This document shows positions 3,206 through 15,842 of a stretch of DNA of 32,160 bases, one piece after another. The notes under the pieces are model-generated. The model was not told where the DNA came from, did no database searches, and saw only the letters and a program-made list of their open reading frames with translations. Source of the DNA: Clostridia bacterium (GTDB lineage: Bacteria > Bacillota_A > Clostridia > Oscillospirales > CAG-272); NCBI GenBank assembly GCA_017466455.1, contig JAFTUD010000038.1:1-32160 (forward strand). Direction: 5' to 3'. Both the position numbers and the translations under genes were made by a program. Numbering within the stretch: the first letter of the stretch is position 1; each line of letters begins with the position of its first letter.

Positions 3206-4174
3206 ATGAAAAGGCTATTTGCGTTTATTTTGTTAGTAATTATGTGTCTTGGTGTTGTTTCGTGCACGAATGAGGCGGTTGAGAAGAAATATTCCGGAAA
3301 CAGTATAATCGTTAAAAACGGTCGGCTCAGAAGATTGCCTCTTTATTATGAGGATGACAACCCGTTTGAAAACCCTTGGGCAGTTGCTCCTTCGGATATG
3401 GAAGCGGAGGAAGATGCTCCGTGTGAATTTGAGGGCGTTTCTTATCTTGGAAAGTATACGGAATCGAACTTTCCGATCGGCAGTCAAGAAACACTTCACA
3501 AATTTGTTCGTGAAAATGAAATGGAATATACTCTTACCGACAGTGGTAAACTTAAAAATATTAAATTTTACTTCACAAAAGAAATTGCATTTTTGCAATA
3601 TGTTCAAAATCCCGCGCAACACGCAGTCCCCGTTGCGAGAGAGGTTGCGTCAAAATACATAGACCTTGCTGAATATGAGGAAATGGCAGGGGAAAAAACA
3701 TCTCTGGTCAAAATATTTGACGGACTCGGCTGTGGGGTTGATTACTATACAACAATATTTGTTAAAAAGATTCAAGGCGTGTATACCTCTGATTATATTG
3801 CGGTAAAGGTAGACTCAAAAGGAACAGTTGCCGAAGTGGATTTTGGAACTTTTGGCGCATTTGATGATATCACAGCAAAGATAGATATGGATAAAGTAAA
3901 CGCAGATATTGAAGATAGAATAGACACAGCATTTAAGACCGAAGTGACCACACAAAACTTCAAGACCCTACATATGAGAACCGCAACCGAAATTGAACAA
4001 CAAATTTTAACAATCACACCCGAAAATGAATTGGTTATCGTTTCAAGAGTTCATATCGAGTCGTATAATGCAACGCTAAGAGGCTACAAATATGAAGAGA
4101 GCGACACAATAACGGTTGTTACAAAATTAAACGCCGATAATTTTATAGAAACTCAGGACTTGACACTAAGTTAA
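3206..4174 (+). CDS. Predicted lipoprotein of unknown function
   Basis: I do not recognise this family. The 322-residue product begins at the ATG preceded by AAAAGGAGATTGTT; an in-frame GTG/TTG-type extension to 3146 would place extra residues before the signal peptide and lacks a ribosome binding site. The N-terminus is a lipoprotein signal peptide: KR, a hydrophobic core, and the lipobox VVSC (Cys at residue 20). The mature part is soluble, mixed alpha/beta by appearance, rich in acidic residues, with no further membrane segment. It is expected to sit on the outer face of the membrane. The promoter of the next transcript (4160-4188) overlaps its last codons, so it is probably transcribed separately from the downstream lipoprotein. 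Its codon use looks more AT-rich than that of the surrounding genes, but I did not measure this. Confidence 0.75.
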   Translation: MKRLFAFILLVIMCLGVVSCTNEAVEKKYSGNSIIVKNGRLRRLPLYYEDDNPFENPWAVAPSDMEAEEDAPCEFEGVSYLGKYTESNFPIGSQETLHKFVRENEMEYTLTDSGKLKNIKFYFTKEIAFLQYVQNPAQHAVPVAREVASKYIDLAEYEEMAGEKTSLVKIFDGLGCGVDYYTTIFVKKIQGVYTSDYIAVKVDSKGTVAEVDFGTFGAFDDITAKIDMDKVNADIEDRIDTAFKTEVTTQNFKTLHMRTATEIEQQILTITPENELVIVSRVHIESYNATLRGYKYEESDTITVVTKLNADNFIETQDLTLS

Positions 4175-4188
4175 AAATATGTTAAAAT
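4160..4188 (+). promoter_or_regulatory. Promoter of the cobalamin-riboswitch transcript
   Basis: TTGACA at 4160-4165 and TAAAAT at 4183-4188 are separated by exactly 17 bases. The -35 lies inside the last codons of the preceding lipoprotein gene. Transcription would start around 4195, just before the riboswitch aptamer. Confidence 0.8.
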
Positions 4189-4191
4189 AAA

Positions 4192-4340
4192 GCGAGCGTG
4201 CAAAGGGGAAAGTGCGGTGCAAATCCGTCGCAACAGCCATTACCGTAAAAGTCGGAACACCAAATGCGTGCGTTTGGCATTGCCAAATGGTAAAATAGCC
4301 TTGGGCAACGGGGGCGAAAAGACCGAGGAATGTTTGATGC
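4192..4340 (+). ncRNA. Cobalamin (B12) riboswitch
   Basis: The leader contains the conserved cobalamin aptamer core: GGGGAAAGTGCGGTGCAAATCC at 4205-4226 (split here as AGGGGAA followed by GGTGCAAATCC), then CAACAGCCATTACCGTAA, corresponding to the B12-box region GCNNCCACTG in consensus form, followed by a variable arm with a TTTGGCATTGCCAAATGG hairpin and a distal GCGAAAAGACCGAGG segment in place of the usual GAAGNCAGGA element. Boundaries are approximate, and the 3' part is the most divergent. It follows a strong promoter and precedes the DUF4430 lipoprotein, so it should control that gene, probably by repression when cobalamin is plentiful. A covariance-model search would settle the class. 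Confidence 0.8.
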
Positions 4341-4391
4341 TTTCATTCTTCGATTTGTTTATCTCAAATAAGATAATAAGGAAGAATGAAA

Positions 4392-4760
4392 ATGAAAAGA
4401 ATTTTATCACTCACACTTGTAATTTTGATGCTTCTTGCATCACTCACACTCCTGTCCTGTGGCGATGACGAAACGGAAAAATCGTTCACCCTGACAGTGG
4501 TTCACCTAAACGGAGAGGAAAAGACCTTTAATTTAACATCAAGTGAAAAGCACCTTGGCGATGCCCTAATAAGCGAGGGAATTGTAGAGGGTGAAAACGG
4601 ACAATACGGGCTTTATATCACCACCGTTGACTCGGAGTACCATAAATACGAGGACGACGGAAAATACTGGGCGTTCTACATAGACGGCGAGTATGCAATG
4701 ACAGGCGTAGATATGACCGAAATTGTAGACGGAGCATCATATACCCTTAAAGCCGAATAA
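4392..4760 (+). CDS. DUF4430 (transcobalamin C-terminal-like) lipoprotein
   Basis: The 122-residue product is a small surface lipoprotein. Residues 1-20 form a signal peptide ending in the lipobox LLSC, followed by an acidic linker and one DUF4430 domain recognisable from GDALISEGIVEG, the YWAFYIDGEYAMTGVD core and the terminal VDGASYTLKAE. DUF4430 resembles the C-terminal domain of animal transcobalamin and intrinsic factor. The ATG at 4392 is preferred to 4386 because AAGGA then lies about eight bases upstream. Being under a cobalamin riboswitch, it is inferred to bind or hand over corrinoids outside the cell; no B12 transporter gene is adjacent. A strong terminator follows. Confidence 0.88.
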   Translation: MKRILSLTLVILMLLASLTLLSCGDDETEKSFTLTVVHLNGEEKTFNLTSSEKHLGDALISEGIVEGENGQYGLYITTVDSEYHKYEDDGKYWAFYIDGEYAMTGVDMTEIVDGASYTLKAE

Positions 4761-4781
4761 AAATTAAACATCTAAAAAGCA

Positions 4782-5440
4782 TCAAAACGGGCGTCGCATT
4801 AGCGACGCCTCTTTTTGCAGGGGATAGTGAAACGAGATCACCCAACCCCTTAAATCGCTTCGCAATTTTAGGGAACCCTTGGGACCGAAGCAATATGTAT
4901 CCGAACCGACGGGCGTAAAATCGCACTCTGACAAAAGTACCGTTTTCGTTCCGTCTTTATAATTGAAGGTGAACGTTATTTTATCGTCATAAAGATAAAT
5001 CGCATTGATGAAATTATCAATCAAACACTTTTTATCCTCTTCCTTCTCGATATTCAATTTTCTAAAACGCTCTATCCCAAAGCGTATTTGTTCCCGTGTC
5101 AAAAGCGGTCTTTCAATCTGTTCTTCCAAGATAGATATTTCCAGCTCGCTCTTTTGCTTTTCAAGTTCCGCCAACCTATCCCGCGTAGAATCAAAAATAA
5201 TCCCCTGCTCTATCGCTTGAATGATATTCTCTATCTTTTTCAGTACGTCCGCCATTTGCGCTTTTAATTGCGGTAAACGGGGATTCGCTACGCCTTGCAT
5301 TTCAAACAGCTTATCTACGAGATAATCCACGATTTTCTCATCGTTCACGATTTCAAACGCTTTTTGCACAGCCAAGCTTTCTATCCACTCTTTGCGCACA
5401 GCCTTTTTATCACAGGTGTGCTTGAAAAATTTTCTTAAAA
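4782..5440 (-). pseudogene. Large serine recombinase, C-terminal remnant
   Basis: The reading frame matches the C-terminal half of Clostridia large serine recombinases: the end of the zinc-ribbon region (CDKKAVRKEWIESLAV), then the long coiled-coil (rich in E, K, L and Q), the PLLTREQIRFGIERFRKL stretch and the LTFNYKDGTK-like tail (here FTFNYKDGTKTVLL). The catalytic resolvase domain with its serine and most of the recombinase domain are absent, so it cannot recombine DNA. The open frame begins as 5534 but residues before about 5440 come from the opposite-frame overlap with the small ORF. The final codons read through the DUF4430 terminator, so the natural end is also lost. Interpreted as the scar of an integrated conjugative or transposable element. 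Confidence 0.82.
4790..4816 (+). terminator. Rho-independent terminator of the DUF4430 gene
   Basis: A perfect GGCGTCGC / GCGACGCC stem with an ATTA loop is followed by TCTTTTT. It lies about 30 bases after the stop codon and marks the left limit of the mobile-element scar. Confidence 0.9.
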
Positions 5441-8616: not shown

Positions 8617-9015
8617 ATGAAGCTTGTAGGAAATATAATTTGGTTCATTCTCTTTGGAATGATACCGTGCGCTATTCACTTCGTGCTTGGTGCGATACTT
8701 TGCTGTACCTTTATATGCTTTCCGGCAGGAATGGCGCTTTTCAAAATCGCAAAGCTTGAGGCATTTCCCTTCGGCAAAACGACCGAGCTAAAGGCAGAGG
8801 AGCCAAGCATTGTAAATATTTTGTGGGTTGCCCTTATCGGTAGCTCAATTTCAGTAGTATACCTTCTTTTGGCACTCGTTCTTTGCGCAACGATAATCCT
8901 TATCCCCTTCGCAAAGCAATGCGTCAAAATCGCCAAGCTCGCGCATGTCCCCTTCGGTAGCGAGGTGTATCACACCGATATGCTAAGACAGTCTAATCAT
9001 AATTCAAACATATAA
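8617..9015 (+). CDS. YccF-domain (DUF307) inner-membrane protein
   Basis: The 132-residue protein contains two copies of the YccF-type pattern: a hydrophobic segment starting GNIIWFILFG, then CTFICFPAG and the short KIAKLEAFPFGK, repeated in the second half as NILWVALIGS, ATIILIPFA and KIAKLAHVPFG. It is predicted to have four membrane segments with conserved PFG ends. The function of the family is unknown. TAGGAG precedes the ATG by six bases, it has its own promoter and two terminators follow, so it is monocistronic. Confidence 0.9.
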   Translation: MKLVGNIIWFILFGMIPCAIHFVLGAILCCTFICFPAGMALFKIAKLEAFPFGKTTELKAEEPSIVNILWVALIGSSISVVYLLLALVLCATIILIPFAKQCVKIAKLAHVPFGSEVYHTDMLRQSNHNSNI

Positions 9016-9021
9016 AATAAA

Positions 9022-9050
9022 AAAGCCCTCGCACCGCCGAGGGCTTTCGC
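9022..9050. terminator. AAAGCCCTCG / CGAGGGCTTT terminator hairpin
   Basis: A perfect 10-bp stem with a CACCGC loop lies just after the YccF gene. Its A- and T-runs allow it to work in both directions, although the T-run is short. A closely related hairpin occurs at 16069-16086. Confidence 0.7.
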
Positions 9051-9154
9051 ATATAAAAATATCAAAAAGCAAGAAATATTGCGGAAAATATGAATGATTA
9101 TTCGTATTCGGCTCAAAAAATAAGTAGCCTTATTGAATTTTCGGTTGAATAAAG

Positions 9155-9198
9155 AAGCAGTCAGATGCCCATGCTCTTGGACACCTGACTGCTTTTTT
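9155..9198. terminator. Bidirectional terminator between YccF and phoR-like genes
   Basis: A stem AAGCAGTCAG / CTGACTGCTT, extended inside by TG-CCA/TGG-CA pairing, ends in TTTTTT on the plus strand and TTCTTTATT on the minus strand. It separates convergent transcripts: the YccF gene (plus) and the phosphate operon (minus). Confidence 0.8.
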
Positions 9199-9206
9199 GA
9201 TTGCCT

Positions 9207-10910
9207 TTAATTGCTTTTGCTGAAAACTATTGTAACCGTTGTGCCGACACCGATTTCGCTTTCGATAGAAAGCTCGGCATTATATAGCGCGCAAATGTGC
9301 TTTACGATTGCAAGACCTAAGCCCGTACCGCCCGTCTTTTTAGAGCGAGATTTATCTACACGGTAAAATCTTTCGCAAAGGCGCGGAATATTCTCTTTTT
9401 CAATTCCGATTCCCGTATCGGCTACCGATAATTTCGTTTCATCTTCATTTTCGCTAATCGTAACGGTGATTTTGCCGTTTTCTATGTTGTAATGGATTGC
9501 GTTCGAGCAAAGATTTTCAACCACCTCGAAAATCTTTTTATTATCCGCCAAAACCGTTCCCGCACCCTTTATCTCCAAGGCTATATTTTTCTTTTTAAGC
9601 TCGGAGGCAAGCTCCAACGCCACCTCATCCGCAACAGCCCTCACATCAACAGGAGAGTGAACAATATCAATATTTTCGCCGTTTTCAAGCTTGCTTAATT
9701 TCAGCATATCGGAAATTAGCGAAGCAAGGCGCAAGCTTTCCTTGTGTATTCTGTCCACTTGCTTTTTAGAGCCGTCGTCAAGCGCTTCCTTTGCAAGCAA
9801 CAGCTCCGATAAGCCCTGCATAACGGCGACGGGGGTTTTCAGCTCGTGAGAAGCGTTCGCAAAGAAGTCGCTCTTTTGCTTTGCCATTGCCTTTTGACTT
9901 GTAATATCTGTAATAATCACGATAGAATATACATTATCGCTTTGGCTGTCCACCTTGCGTATGACTACGGACAGTTCCTTGCCCTTATAAGTATATTCGG
10001 AAGCATAATTCTCGCCAAGATGACGGGCAATTTTCTCGCAAAGAGGTAGGTCGTCAATCAAATAGATAAAATCCTTACCCATAACATTTTCGGTGGAATC
10101 GAAAATAGTAGAAAGACTTTTGTTTGCAAAAATAATCCTTTTATTTTCATCAATCGCAACAATGCCCTGCGAAACATTTTCAAGCACCGTATTCAGCTTG
10201 TTATGCTCCTCTTGTACTCTTTGAATATGCGTATGCGTGTTTGCGCTTAATTCGTTGATTTCGTTAAGCACGGAATAAAGCTCAGGCTCGCCCGAATCCG
10301 TTTTGATAGGCGTATAGTTACCTGCATTTAAGCTACGCAGGCTGTTGCCAACCTCGGTGATTTTGCCCGATATTTTATTAGACAGCATATTGGAAATTAC
10401 AATAGAAACAATCAGGCAAACGACCAAAACCACAATCAAAATAGGGAGAGCAACCCCTAAATATCCGTTAATCTGACTGCTCTTGACGGCTAAACGCAAA
10501 ATAATTTCCGTGCCGTTTTCAAGCTGTGTTTTCAAGGCGTAATATGTCATATTACAGTTGAATGTTTCGGAATATCTTTCTACCGCCTCGGGCTTCCCGT
10601 TTAGCGCGTTTTTAACCTCTTCACGGTCAATATGGCTTTCAAGCGGGGATTTCGTATCGCTCTCATATAGCACATTCCCGTCTAAATCCATAATCGTTAC
10701 GCGGAAGGCGTCGTCGCTTTCGTAACGGGAAAAATTGCCAAAATCATCGGTGCTTTGCACAAGCGAGCAAGCAAGCTCCGTTTCCTCCGCAAGACGCTCC
10801 TTCATCATTTCTTTTGCGTTGACATTTACGGCAACGATACCGAAAATAAACATCACAAGAACGGAAAGAAAGGTAAGCGCAAGAATTTGAAATAATGTTT
10901 TCTTCTTCAT
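9207..10910 (-). CDS. PhoR-like sensor histidine kinase
   Basis: This 567-residue membrane kinase is the likely phosphate sensor partner of the adjacent response regulator. Order: N-terminal membrane segment (about 8-29), an extracytoplasmic domain (30-150), second membrane segment (about 151-173), HAMP (about 174-230), PAS (about 235-338), HisKA with the phospho-acceptor H355 in ASHELKTP, and HATPase with N-box N466/N470, DTGIGIE (D498) and GGTGLGLAIVK (527-537). This is the architecture of B. subtilis PhoR. Its ATG follows the regulator's stop directly (TAAATG). It is the final gene of the operon. The specific name phoR is inferred from context. Confidence 0.92.
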   Translation of the reverse strand: MKKKTLFQILALTFLSVLVMFIFGIVAVNVNAKEMMKERLAEETELACSLVQSTDDFGNFSRYESDDAFRVTIMDLDGNVLYESDTKSPLESHIDREEVKNALNGKPEAVERYSETFNCNMTYYALKTQLENGTEIILRLAVKSSQINGYLGVALPILIVVLVVCLIVSIVISNMLSNKISGKITEVGNSLRSLNAGNYTPIKTDSGEPELYSVLNEINELSANTHTHIQRVQEEHNKLNTVLENVSQGIVAIDENKRIIFANKSLSTIFDSTENVMGKDFIYLIDDLPLCEKIARHLGENYASEYTYKGKELSVVIRKVDSQSDNVYSIVIITDITSQKAMAKQKSDFFANASHELKTPVAVMQGLSELLLAKEALDDGSKKQVDRIHKESLRLASLISDMLKLSKLENGENIDIVHSPVDVRAVADEVALELASELKKKNIALEIKGAGTVLADNKKIFEVVENLCSNAIHYNIENGKITVTISENEDETKLSVADTGIGIEKENIPRLCERFYRVDKSRSKKTGGTGLGLAIVKHICALYNAELSIESEIGVGTTVTIVFSKSN

Positions 10911-11576
10911 TTATTTGTTTTCAAACCGATATCCGATACCGCGAACGGTAACGATACAGTCCTTTCCTCCTGCTTCCCGTATTTTTTCACGCAGAGATGC
11001 AATGTGGATATCAAGCGTTCTTGTTTCGCCCATATAATCCTCGCCCCAAACCTCACGGAACATTTCTTCACGCTCTACCGTAACGCCAGCTTTGCCGATA
11101 AGCAATTTCAAAAGCTTGAATTCCTTCATCGTAAGAGCTAAATCCTTATCGTTATAAAACGCCTTATACACATTGTTGTCAATCGAAAATCCGTTTACGC
11201 TCGTTATATAAAGCCTTGCACGGCGCAGGTTGGTTTTTACGCGCGCCAAAAGCTCCAAAACCGAAAAGGGCTTTGCCATATAATCGTCAGCGCCCTTGTT
11301 CAAGCCCTTTACGAAGCTGATCTCATCTGATTTCGCACTTACGCAAATTACGGGGATTTTTTCGTCAATTTCACGAATTTTCGTTAAAATCGTAAATCCG
11401 TCCATAATCGGTAGCATAATATCAAGGATAACAAGGTCGGGCTTTTTAATGCTAAAGATGTCAAAAAAGTCCTTGCCGTTTTCAAAAATTTTCGTTTCGT
11501 AATTTTCTTCAAACGCGCCTTCGTAAACCTCCTGCATGCCTTCGTCGTCTTCAACGATATAAATAAGTTCCTTCAT
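10911..11576 (-). CDS. OmpR/PhoB-family response regulator (PhoP-like)
   Basis: The 221-residue protein has a receiver domain (acidic pocket D10/D11, phospho-acceptor D52 in LVILDIMLP, K102 in AKPF) and a C-terminal winged-helix domain of the OmpR type (LTMKEFKLLKLL, REEMFREVWGEDYMGETRTLDIHIASLR, VRGIGYRFE). Its ATG overlaps the phoU stop (TAATG), and the kinase follows with no gap, so the three are coupled. By context it is the PhoP/PhoB regulator and would bind the phased repeats upstream of pstS at 15916-15943. In many Bacillota phoPR is separate from pst; here it sits at the operon's end. Confidence 0.94.
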   Translation of the reverse strand: MKELIYIVEDDEGMQEVYEGAFEENYETKIFENGKDFFDIFSIKKPDLVILDIMLPIMDGFTILTKIREIDEKIPVICVSAKSDEISFVKGLNKGADDYMAKPFSVLELLARVKTNLRRARLYITSVNGFSIDNNVYKAFYNDKDLALTMKEFKLLKLLIGKAGVTVEREEMFREVWGEDYMGETRTLDIHIASLREKIREAGGKDCIVTVRGIGYRFENK

Positions 11577-12229
11577 TATACTTTTATGTGTACTCCCGTT
11601 TCGTTATATTTTGTCCATTCACATACATTTACCGCGTGATCGCCGATTCGCTCCAAATACTTTGCGACCATCATAAGCTCAATGGCTTGATCGCCGTTTT
11701 CTCCGTCCTTTTTGATAAGCTCTATCAAATCGTTTTTAACGGCTAAAAACATCTCATCCATTTCATCATCGAGCTTTATCACCTCATCGGCAAGGGCTTC
11801 GTTATTGTTGATAAACGAGCTTACGCTTTCTCTGACCATTCTCACGGCAAGATTGCCCATAGCGGTAATATGCGTAAGCTTTTTAATATATTTTTCGCCC
11901 GGCATTGTGTAAACCAAATCGCCAATATCGCTTGCTTGGTCGCCAAATCGCTCAATGTCCGTTATCATTTTAAGCGCGGTGGAAACCTCGCGAAAATCCT
12001 TTGCAACGGGCTGTTGCTTGAGCAGTATTCGCATACAGCGCTTTTCAATATCCATTTCGTATTCATCTACGCGCTTATCCATTTGCCCGATGCTTTTTCC
12101 AAGCTCCCTATCACGGTTGACAAGCGCCGTGATAGCGCTTTCTATCATTTGCTCGGTAAGACGGCACATTTCCACAAGCTCGTTCTTTAACAGCGCAAGC
12201 TCTTCTTCAAATATTTTTCTAATAGACAT
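11576..12229 (-). CDS. phoU: Phosphate transport system regulator PhoU
   Basis: PhoU links the Pst transporter to the histidine kinase and suppresses the phosphate starvation response. The 217-residue product is all-helical and has two PhoU repeats, each with the metal-site signature: EKRCMRILLKQQPVAKDFREV with DIERFGDQASDIG in the first, and a second repeat ending AKYLERIGDHAVNVCEW. TAAGGAGTAAGGAC lies before the ATG. It is 58 bases after pstB, and its stop overlaps the start of the response regulator. Confidence 0.96.
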   Translation of the reverse strand: MSIRKIFEEELALLKNELVEMCRLTEQMIESAITALVNRDRELGKSIGQMDKRVDEYEMDIEKRCMRILLKQQPVAKDFREVSTALKMITDIERFGDQASDIGDLVYTMPGEKYIKKLTHITAMGNLAVRMVRESVSSFINNNEALADEVIKLDDEMDEMFLAVKNDLIELIKKDGENGDQAIELMMVAKYLERIGDHAVNVCEWTKYNETGVHIKV

Positions 12230-12287: not shown

Positions 12288-13064
12288 TCAACCGAATCTG
12301 CCCGTAATATAGCGCTCGGTGCGTTCATCCTTGGGTGATGTAAATATATCATCGGTGTTGCCGTATTCTACAAGCTCTCCCAAAAGGAAGAATGCTGTTT
12401 TGTCGGCAATACGGGTTGCTTGTTGCATATTGTGGGTTACGATAACTATGGTAATTTCCTTTTTCAGCTCTTCCATAAGCTCTTCAATTTTACCCGTAGA
12501 GATAGGGTCAAGCGCGCTTGTCGGCTCGTCCATTAAAAGGATTTTCGGGTTTGCCGCCAAAGAGCGCGCAATGCAAAGTCGTTGCTGTTGACCGCCCGAA
12601 AGCCCTAACGCGGATTTATTCAATCTATCCTTTAGCTCGTCCCACATAGCCGCTTGCTTAAGAGAAGTTTCTACAATCTCGTCAAGCCTTGACCGCTTCG
12701 TAATTCCGAAGGTTCTCGGACCGTATGCGATATTATCATAAACGCTCATCGGGAACGGGTTGGGCTTTTGGAATACCATACCTACATTTTTGCGAAGCTC
12801 GTTTATGTCGATTTTGCCGTAAATATCCGTTTCGCCCACATAAAATTTTCCTTCTATTTTGCACCCATCAACTAAATCGTTCATACGGTTAAAGCATTTA
12901 AGAAATGTAGATTTACCGCATCCCGACGGACCGATAAACGCCGTTACCTGCCTCTCGGGAATTTCTACACTGATATTTTTCAAGGCTTGAAAATCGCCGT
13001 ACCAAAGGCTTGCGTCCTTTACGGATATGCTTCCGCCATATGCTTCTTCAATATTTTTAATCAT
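12288..13064 (-). CDS. pstB: Phosphate ABC transporter ATP-binding protein PstB
   Basis: PstB is the ATPase that powers phosphate import. The 258-residue protein carries Walker [10 protein letters not shown] (45-53), the Q-loop [23 protein letters not shown] that is diagnostic of PstB, the signature [13 protein letters not shown], Walker [14 protein letters not shown] and the switch histidine in [13 protein letters not shown] precedes the ATG. The start overlaps the fused permease stop by one base (TAATG). The C-terminal end YITGRFG is typical. Confidence 0.97.
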
Positions 13065-14905
13065 TATTTATCTCCTTGTAATCTTTTGTTAAGCTTGCTT
13101 GCGATAAGCTCCGCTAAAAGGTTTAACCCAAGCACGAGAATAATCAGCACCACCGCCGTGGCATATGCTTCGTTTACATACCAGCCCTCGCCCGAAAGCC
13201 TGTAAAGCGCAACCGCAAGCGTGGCATTGCTGTCCAAATATCCCGTAGGCGTTGCGGATATTACCGAGCCCATAGTGTAAATAAACGGGGCGGACTCCGC
13301 AATCACTCTGCCCATGCTTAGAATAATGGCAGATATAATGCCGGGAAGCGCACACGGCAACACAATTTTGAAAATTGTTCTCATTTTACCTGCGCCAAGA
13401 GCAAGACTTCCTTCGCGCAAGCTGTTTTGTACCGACTTTAAGCTTTCCTCTGTGGAACGCACAATTGTGGGAAGTAGCATTATGCTTATTGTTAGCGTAC
13501 CTGCCAAAATAGAGCTTGTACCGCCAATCAGTGAAACGAAGGTTATCATACCGAAAAGTCCGTAAACAATAGACGGAACACCGTTCAAAAGGTCGATTGC
13601 GCCACGGATAACCTTGATGAAGAAATTGTTTTTCTTTGCGTATTCGTTTAAGAAAATTGCCGTACATAGCCCGATAGGAACGGATATTAGCAGGCTCAAC
13701 GCAACCGTCATAAGCGTTGTAATAATCGACGGCAATATCGTAATTTTTTCGCTGTCAAACTCATATTTCCCAAAGAGCAGGTGAGGGCTTGATATAAGTG
13801 TCGGAAAGCCCTTTATAAAGATAAAGCCTATTACTAGAAGTAATACCGTACCCGCAAAGGCGCCTGCGCCGATAGCCGCGCCCGCACCGATATTCGCCGT
13901 TTTGATTTTATACTTAAATCCCGCGATTTTATCCTTACACCTTGTCCAAAATGTAGCCTTCCTTGTTTTTTCATTTCTCTTAATAATTTTGGAAAATAAG
14001 CCCTTTCCTTCAACTGCGCCCTTTATCGCCCTTTTCGAGATAGCCCCGAACACAAGGTTTACAATAAGCACGAACACAAGCAAAATCACACCCGTAGCAA
14101 CAAGCGCGCCTTGCTGAACCTCGCCTGCGTAGCCCATTTCCATAACGATATTTGCGGTTAAAACGCGGAAGCTGTTGAAAAGCGAATCGGGATAGGCAAC
14201 GGAATTGCCCGCAACCATAACGACCGCCATTGTTTCGCCAAGCGCACGGCCAATACCTAAAACAAGAGATGCTGTTACGCCTGATTTTGCCGCCTTCGTA
14301 ACCGTGCCGAAAACCGCCTGCGAGTGCGTAGAGCCAAGCGCAAGTGCGCCCTCGTAATAAGCGCGCGGGACAGCCTCTAAGCTCGTTTTAGAGAGGGAAA
14401 CGACGGTTGGCATAATCATAATGCCGAGTATTAGCGATGTCGCTAAAAGTCCGCTTCCGTTGTTCGGGGCAAAATTCGCAAGCAACGGGAGCAGGAATAC
14501 AATACCGAAAAAGCCGTAAACCACCGACGGAATACCCGCAAGCAGGTTTATCATTGATGAAAAAATCCTTTTTAACCTCTTCGGGCAATAGAACGCTATG
14601 AATACTGCGGCAAAAAAGCCAAGCGTACCGCCGATTAAAAGCGCACCGACTGTTGCCGCAAGCGTGCTGACTATCATTTTTAATATGCCGTAAGAGCCTG
14701 AAAGGGTTGCATTTTCGTATTTATCCAATCTGTCGGGCGACCAATCGTCCCCGAGGATAAAGTCAAATAATCCGATTTTATTAAAGGCAGGAATACTTTT
14801 AATTAACATAAAAACGAAAATGGCGGCAACGGCGATTACGCATATAACCGCCGCTACCGTGAATATTGCTTGTCCTGCTTTTTCTTTGATTTTTGTGGTA
14901 TTCAT
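13064..14905 (-). CDS. Fused phosphate permease PstC-PstA
   Basis: This 613-residue protein joins the two normally separate membrane subunits of the Pst transporter. Residues 1-about 298 are PstC-like ([22 protein letters not shown] and EAA loop 185-212, [10 protein letters not shown]), and about 345-613 are PstA-like ([16 protein letters not shown] loop 498-523, [16 protein letters not shown]). A charged linker (about 299-335) joins them, so the chain has an even pair of EAA loops for the two PstB sites. The ATG at 14905 sits one base after the pstS stop (TGATATG); a GTG at 14923 inside pstS is an alternative. There is no strong ribosome binding site for either, so translation is probably coupled. 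The stop overlaps pstB. Confidence 0.93.
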
Positions 14906-14906
14906 A

Positions 14907-15842
14907 TCAATCTGCAATCTCACTGAATTTCGTTACTTTTCCGCTGAATATATCGTAAAGCTGCGCAACCGTAAGGTCGTCTACGCCTTCGTTGTCCTTG
15001 TTTACGATAACCGCCACCGCGTCAAGACATACATTGAAGCTGCTTATGCCATCTTCCTTTACGCTTGCGGAAGAAAGTCCGATTACATTGCCGTTTTTGT
15101 CGTTTTGTACAGCGGTTTTACCTACGGAAGAGCCTTGCAAATCAAGCGTGAATATATCGTCAGCCGTTCTTCCATAAAGGCTTGCGTAACCACTCATTGC
15201 TTTTTTGATAAACTTTTCCATAGAGGTAGAGCCGTTTACAGTGATTTTTCCACCCGCAGGGAGCGAAGCTTTTACCTCGTATTCTGCAACGGGAATACCC
15301 GCTTCGCCTTCGTTCGCTCTTTTCGTTTCATCAGCAAGGTAAATACAGCCTGCCTCGCTTGCATGCGTTTCAGCCGCATCACTCTTTAAGTAGAGCAAGA
15401 AGTCTTTGGCAATGTCGGTAAGCTCAACCGTAGAGCTTGTCATAATTACAAACGGTCTTTGGATTTTGTACGAGCCGTCGAGAACGCTTTGAGAGGTAGG
15501 CGCAACACCGTTTATCTTTACTACCTTAATCGTATCGTTTACCGAGCCGAGCGAGATGTAGCCGATAGCGTTTTTGTCACTTGCCACCTTACTCATGACA
15601 TTACCCGTTTCCTTTTGAATATCGGCGTTAGAGGTCGTTTTATAAACCTTCTTTCCGTCAACCTTCATTTCAAGGAAGCTTCCGTTGCCGTCACTTACCG
15701 CCTTGTCAAACGCTTCGCGCGTTCCACTGCCTTGCTCACGGGCTACAACCGTGATATTCTTTTCACCGCCACAAGCGGTAAGTCCTACTGCACCTGTAAT
15801 AAGGAGCAAGCAGGAAAGTAAAATTGATAAAAGTTTTTTCAT
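14907..15842 (-). CDS. pstS: Phosphate-binding lipoprotein, circularly permuted PstS
   Basis: PstS captures phosphate outside the membrane for the PstCA-B importer. The 311-residue product has a lipobox LTAC (Cys 24). Its halves are in an unusual order: residues 29-150 (ITVVAREQGSGTREAFD, NAIGYISLGSVNDTIKVVKI, IQRPFVIMTS) match the usual C-terminal half of PstS, while 199-311 (ITVNGSTSMEKF, LDAVAVIVNKDN, LTVAQLYDIFSGK) match the usual N-terminal half. Both phosphate-binding loops, SGTR and GSTS, are therefore kept. An AAGGAG precedes the ATG, and a candidate Pho box lies upstream. I recall similar order in other Clostridia, so it may be a lineage trait. It heads the operon. Confidence 0.93.
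   Translation of the reverse strand: MKKLLSILLSCLLLITGAVGLTACGGEKNITVVAREQGSGTREAFDKAVSDGNGSFLEMKVDGKKVYKTTSNADIQKETGNVMSKVASDKNAIGYISLGSVNDTIKVVKINGVAPTSQSVLDGSYKIQRPFVIMTSSTVELTDIAKDFLLYLKSDAAETHASEAGCIYLADETKRANEGEAGIPVAEYEVKASLPAGGKITVNGSTSMEKFIKKAMSGYASLYGRTADDIFTLDLQGSSVGKTAVQNDKNGNVIGLSSASVKEDGISSFNVCLDAVAVIVNKDNEGVDDLTVAQLYDIFSGKVTKFSEIAD

Follow-up and report, generated by a model that had tools for sequence, protein, structure and literature searches.

The pstS gene of a Clostridia bacterium encodes a circularly permuted PstS, in which the half that is C-terminal in the classical protein comes first and the N-terminal half comes last. The gene lies on the minus strand of the window analysed here, a stretch of 32,160 nucleotides that is contig JAFTUD010000038.1 of assembly GCA_017466455.1. 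The permutation is confirmed by sequence, by profiles, by comparison of predicted with solved structures and by many independent assemblies. A sequence-only reading had proposed it, placing REQGSGTR early, GSTSMEKF near residue 203 and a segment that normally precedes REQGSGTR late; we find the three at residues 35-42, 204-211 and 290-302, the last being LTVAQLYDIFSGK, which adjoins the C-terminus. The parts of the protein are as follows, the half boundaries being our choice from the profile, phmmer and structure-match alignments.

14907..15842, minus strand: permuted PstS, 311 aa (open reading frame with ATG start)
15771..15842, minus strand: lipoprotein signal, residues 1-24, with the lipid-anchor Cys24 in LTAC (from sequence)
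15333..15761, minus strand: leading segment, residues 28-170, which corresponds to the C-terminal half of classical PstS (from alignments)
15717..15740, minus strand: phosphate loop REQGSGTR, residues 35-42 (from sequence)
15255..15332, minus strand: linker, residues 171-196, bridging the former C- and N-termini (remainder between the halves)
14916..15254, minus strand: trailing segment, residues 197-309, which corresponds to the N-terminal half of classical PstS (from alignments)
15222..15233, minus strand: first phosphate loop GSTS, residues 204-207 (from sequence)
14937..14975, minus strand: LTVAQLYDIFSGK, residues 290-302, found before REQGSGTR in classical PstS (from sequence and alignments)

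Both halves are homologous to classical PstS. The TIGR02136 profile matches the protein in two stretches (E 1e-34), the better of which aligns residues 27-167 with profile positions 161-293 of 295. PF12849 also matches in two stretches; in the better, residues 191-307 align with positions 3-124 of 267, so the first half of this profile stands last in the protein. Searches with phmmer returned swapped pieces for two classical chains: residues 200-309 match 6-113 and 25-158 match 115-234 of 4q8r, while 199-309 match 38-146 and 25-158 match 148-267 of 4gd5. The match to 4h1x is single, collinear and full-length (28-309 to 9-264, E 2.5e-32). The swapped pieces and the one-piece match together show that the order of the halves is exchanged, with the cut just before the strand into REQGSGTR. 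The classical order of N-half, then C-half is replaced by C-half, then N-half. Full-length relatives on other contigs are 98% (8 member sequences), 91% and less identical to the window protein, and these, with the E-values, rule out a chance match.

The closest known system is 4h1x itself, phosphate-binding protein PstS 2 (SP_2084) of Streptococcus pneumoniae TIGR4, which has the permuted order and was released in 2012. It is 34-36% identical to the window protein and has a shorter linker between the halves. Classical PstS (TIGR02136; 4gd5, 4q8r, 1twy, 4exl) shares with the window protein the homologous halves, both phosphate loops and the setting in a pst operon, but differs in the order of the halves.

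An AlphaFold model built from alignment A4 (72 diverse rows) has the overall permuted fold of 4h1x, so that both checks proposed with the sequence-only reading, alignment of the halves and fold prediction, came out in its favour. A model from 12 close relatives (alignment A1) was poor, with a mean predicted local distance difference test (pLDDT) score of 59.8, and was set aside. The A4 model contains two long strands, 128-136 and 266-281, placed where binding proteins of this kind cross between the lobes. The chain would then begin and end in the second lobe and traverse the first lobe mid-way, with linker 171-196 joining the old termini, and the number of lobe crossings would remain two. The cut falls in the loop that follows the LTLEQL..IF(S/T)GK helix region and precedes the strand leading into REQGSGTR. 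With both termini in the second lobe, the lipid would tether that lobe and not the first, and we infer from the model that the anchor has moved to the other lobe.

Cys24 is invariant in alignments A1 and A2. In the window protein, 11 residues separate the lipid-bearing cysteine from the first ligand loop. We compared this distance across a set of distinct open reading frames (ORFs), 126 permuted and 88 classical, from which 41 ORFs identical to others and 10 rows with a different or incomplete architecture had been removed. By a crude pattern count the median is 16 residues in permuted and 27 in classical proteins, measured in 119 of the 126 and 51 of the 88 (13 of the classical ORFs lack a lipobox and 24 lack a loop match). 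Natural permutation of a central binding protein amounts to a clean natural experiment, in which the fold is the same, the job is probably the same, and the termini and anchor would sit on the opposite lobe. It allows a test of whether docking and release depend on which lobe is tethered.

The sequence-only reading mentioned a similar order in other Clostridia, and this is borne out. Our class sample comprises 391 genomes of the class of G002, the genome of locus L002, whose PstS is 84% identical to that of the window. In it, 268 genomes match the permuted profile A2 and 74 carry a full-length protein in permuted order, a count that excludes the partial cases G082, G187 and G259 and includes the previously known carriers G002, G008, G009 and G012. 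An earlier search of the class with TIGR02136, matching 139 of 196 genomes, is superseded by the A2 search. The permuted order was also found in 3 of 250 genomes in the class of G402 (Aeribacillus, Bacilli), 231 of which match in some way, and in 3 of 149 in the phylum of G403 (a Coriobacteriia record, Actinomycetota). The phyla of G406 and G407 gave no match at E <= 1e-40 in 148 and 97 genomes, respectively, an empty result that is weakly informative. Permuted proteins carry names that include Blautia and Anaerosphaera, and Peptostreptococcus porci has one as well.

Seventeen plasmid records had a match, and the best 3 of the 17 were examined. Treponema saccharophilum pTS2 and Monoglobus pectinilyticus plasmid 3 each carry a permuted PstS followed by separate pstC, pstA, pstB and phoU; the third, a Subdoligranulum record, carries a classical PstS. 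On pTS2 (L264, permuted gene at 3914-4783) an entire pst operon with a permuted PstS is plasmid-borne in a spirochaete and may have come from Gram-positives.

The number of origins was addressed with a tree of 86 rows and 240 columns, in which the halves were set in one order; the rows were thinned from 216 at 62% identity. Three changes in the order of the halves are needed on this tree. Forty of the 42 permuted rows form one clade, which holds the window protein, a Blautia protein and 4h1x. The PstS tree itself is unrooted, and we take the permuted order as derived because both-half genes in eight outgroup genomes are classical in order. An approximately unbiased (AU) test did not reject a single clade of all 42 permuted rows (p 0.409; p 0.385 without L204), a value above 0.05 being no proof of such a clade. 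These results fit a single origin of the permutation.

The sequence-only reading also pointed to the co-occurrence with a fused PstC-PstA permease, which holds in the window but not in general. In the ORF set, a sample enriched for permuted genes whose counts are not frequencies, 39 of the 126 permuted ORFs are followed by a fused PstC-PstA, 74 by separate pstC and pstA, and 13 by no complete pair in view; the corresponding numbers for the 88 classical ORFs are 0, 71 and 17. On the tree, the rows with a fused permease belong to a 12-row group inside the permuted clade (support 100/100), so placed that the fusion needs one change; 11 of the 12 have the fusion, and L209 has no permease beside it. 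Because the fusion accompanies only part of the permuted ORFs and arises by one change within their clade, the permutation is the wider and, on the tree, the older of the two. As the 39/74/13 split and the single change show, the permutation does not as a rule go together with the permease fusion; the fusion would have come later, in one sub-clade.

The permutation would have arisen once, by tandem duplication, fusion and trimming. This route predicts proteins with two consecutive copies of both halves (NCNC), and there are four among 317 proteins taken from search listings or typed as query: P0124, P0125, P0202 and P0203, of 527-539 aa. They fuse two PstS copies of the classical kind in tandem and fall into two lineages, one with P0124 and one with the other three. 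Each is in effect a double binding protein in one chain; P0202 comes from a contig of 3.83 Mb that bears the name Clostridium sp. 'deep ...'.

The same 317 proteins include eight of NCN type (P0126, P0128, P0129, P0205, P0206, P0208, P0209, P0210) and four of CNC type (P0122, P0123, P0204, P0207). We considered these as the missing intermediates of the permutation and rejected them: their segments are mosaic, part closest to classical PstS and the rest to permuted PstS, and the two N copies within an NCN protein are just 38-46% identical. For example, the last part of P0129 is closest (84%) to P0158, which is 65% identical to the window protein. By their sequences, the NCN and CNC proteins would be either hybrids between existing genes or chimaeras of metagenome assembly. 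The NCN clusters P0205, P0206, P0208 and P0209 are 83-97% identical to one another and have a similar junction, which suggests that one NCN line may be real; a search of the 391 genomes with A3, a profile built from the NCN, CNC and NCNC forms, counts against it, with no match of NCN, CNC or NCNC length among the matches listed. If real, the NCN and CNC proteins show recombination between the classical and permuted kinds, not the founding event.

These observations can be joined into one history, which we offer tentatively. One old permutation may have founded a large, unnamed PstS clade of Bacillota, tethered by its second lobe, which replaces classical PstS in many lineages, has spread to Bacilli, Actinomycetota and spirochaetes, and continues to form one-and-a-half-copy hybrids by recombination with classical copies; the new tether would alter docking to the permease, with the PstC-PstA fusion following in one sub-clade. 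Several points weigh against our main reading, in which a working phosphate-binding PstS was permuted once. The permuted clade has moderate support (81/91, not starred), and two permuted proteins outside it, L204 (997-1944) and L206 (4962-6080), leave room for further origins. The NCNC proteins are duplicates within classical PstS (N copies 72-80% and C copies 73-85% identical) and not ancestors of the clade, and no NCNC protein was among the A3 matches listed in the 391 genomes. Finally, the lobe assignment is provisional, and we infer phosphate binding and transport by the permuted protein from the evidence given below.

The strongest competitor is that the permutation arose repeatedly, by duplication and fusion or by recombination between neighbouring pstS copies. 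It would account for L204 and L206 as possible second origins, the NCNC, NCN and CNC proteins suggest that copies do fuse and recombine, and neighbouring copies exist in L045 and L198. We nevertheless think it rather unlikely, since the AU test is compatible with one clade and L206, at 1.71 changes per column, is marked as a long branch (L204, at 1.37, stays below the limit of the tool). The neighbouring copies are tandem pairs of permuted pstS genes in front of pstC and pstA, at 8950-9846 and 9962-10831 of L045 and at 4227-5171 and 5258-6220 of L198.

The permuted pstS lies directly upstream of pstCA-pstB-phoU-phoBR, and the listed start of the fused permease gene overlaps the end of pstS. 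The operon provides both a permease and an ATPase:

13064..14923, minus strand: fused PstC-PstA permease, 619 aa (TIGR02138 at residues 14-298, 408.7 bits; TIGR00974 at 355-612, 372.1 bits)
12288..13064, minus strand: PstB ATPase (PF00005; named by its operon context)
11576..12229, minus strand: PhoU (PF01895)
10911..11576, minus strand: PhoB-like response regulator (PF00072 and PF00486)
9207..10910, minus strand: PhoR-like histidine kinase (PF00512, PF02518 and PAS)

Eleven residues are invariant in the 72 rows of A4: R35, S39, G40, T41, R42, G204, S205, S207, S238, G241 and S258. They presumably include the PstS loops that hold phosphate. As the sequence-only reading held, both loops remain, the residues of REQGSGTR and GSTS being largely invariant. 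Among 12 genomes with a permuted gene (completeness not given), 8 match TIGR02136 only through the two halves of that gene; G003, G007, G008 and G011 hold further PstS-like or permuted genes. The conserved ligand loops, the operon context and the lack of another TIGR02136 match in these eight genomes all agree with a retained function. The window protein is very probably a permuted, working phosphate-binding PstS of this Pst importer, its function is most likely ordinary phosphate capture, and the permutation is probably harmless to it. Phosphate would bind between the lobes and then pass to PstCA as usual.

A changed ligand (another oxyanion), or a role next to the Pst importer as no more than a sensor or a spare copy, could be read from residues 257-259, which are SSA in the window protein and SSR in several relatives, and from the two permuted copies in some genomes (G007, G008, G129). 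We consider this improbable given the invariant loop residues, the position of the gene in an operon with permease and ATPase, and its standing as sole TIGR02136 match in 8 of 12 genomes. An assembly error that joined two gene fragments and so mimicked a swapped order is already refuted, as nothing was found to support it and the same order recurs in full-length relatives on other contigs, in 74 of 391 genomes and in the solved structure 4h1x.

The permuted proteins are easily overlooked in annotation. The window protein scores 120.1 bits against TIGR02136, 86 bits short of the curated cut-off of 206.6. All 72 A4 members match this profile at E <= 0.001 (best, 3.3e-61); the score of the best may come close to the cut-off, and some permuted PstS may therefore pass it. 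The permuted proteins of pTS2 and M. pectinilyticus plasmid 3 are annotated 'substrate-binding domain-containing protein' despite the pstC, pstA, pstB and phoU behind them, and operons with a permuted PstS can appear to lack pstS. No paper describing PstS as permuted was found in our literature search, outside which most subscription journals lay. The sequence-only reading had left novelty uncertain. The topology is not new, since 4h1x entered the PDB in 2012 and the order is common in the sampled class; the permuted PstS is a little-noticed but established variant, not a first.

Besides 4h1x, there are precedents among other permuted binding proteins. MglB-2 of Treponema pallidum (TpMglB-2, Tp0684) is a circularly permuted, tethered lipoprotein of an ATP-binding cassette importer; its relatives are mostly from treponemes and Gram-positives, and its authors propose a sub-class marked 'c' and state that the permuted part may stem from a different gene (PMC4990184). 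Unlike the window PstS, TpMglB-2 is a sugar-binding protein of Type I whose N lobe is the permuted one, and its permutation needs a fourth lobe crossing instead of three (PMC4990184), whereas permuted PstS would stay at two. The idea of tether strain, taken from TpMglB-2, in which the anchor is held off the ligand site, did not fit, the anchor being nearer to the loop in permuted PstS. OpuAC of Bacillus subtilis (2b4l, 2b4m) has another ligand and 13-14% identity, a likeness of arrangement and not of membership.

Three further PstS-like proteins of 430-440 aa, in L208 (3484-4773), L210 (1588-2895) and L260 (4152-5471), are classical in order; by eye they have hydrophobic segments in front, and no match to pstC or pstA is in view behind them. 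PDB entry 9l8j refers in its title to an 'evolutionary hotspot' of a phosphate-binding protein.
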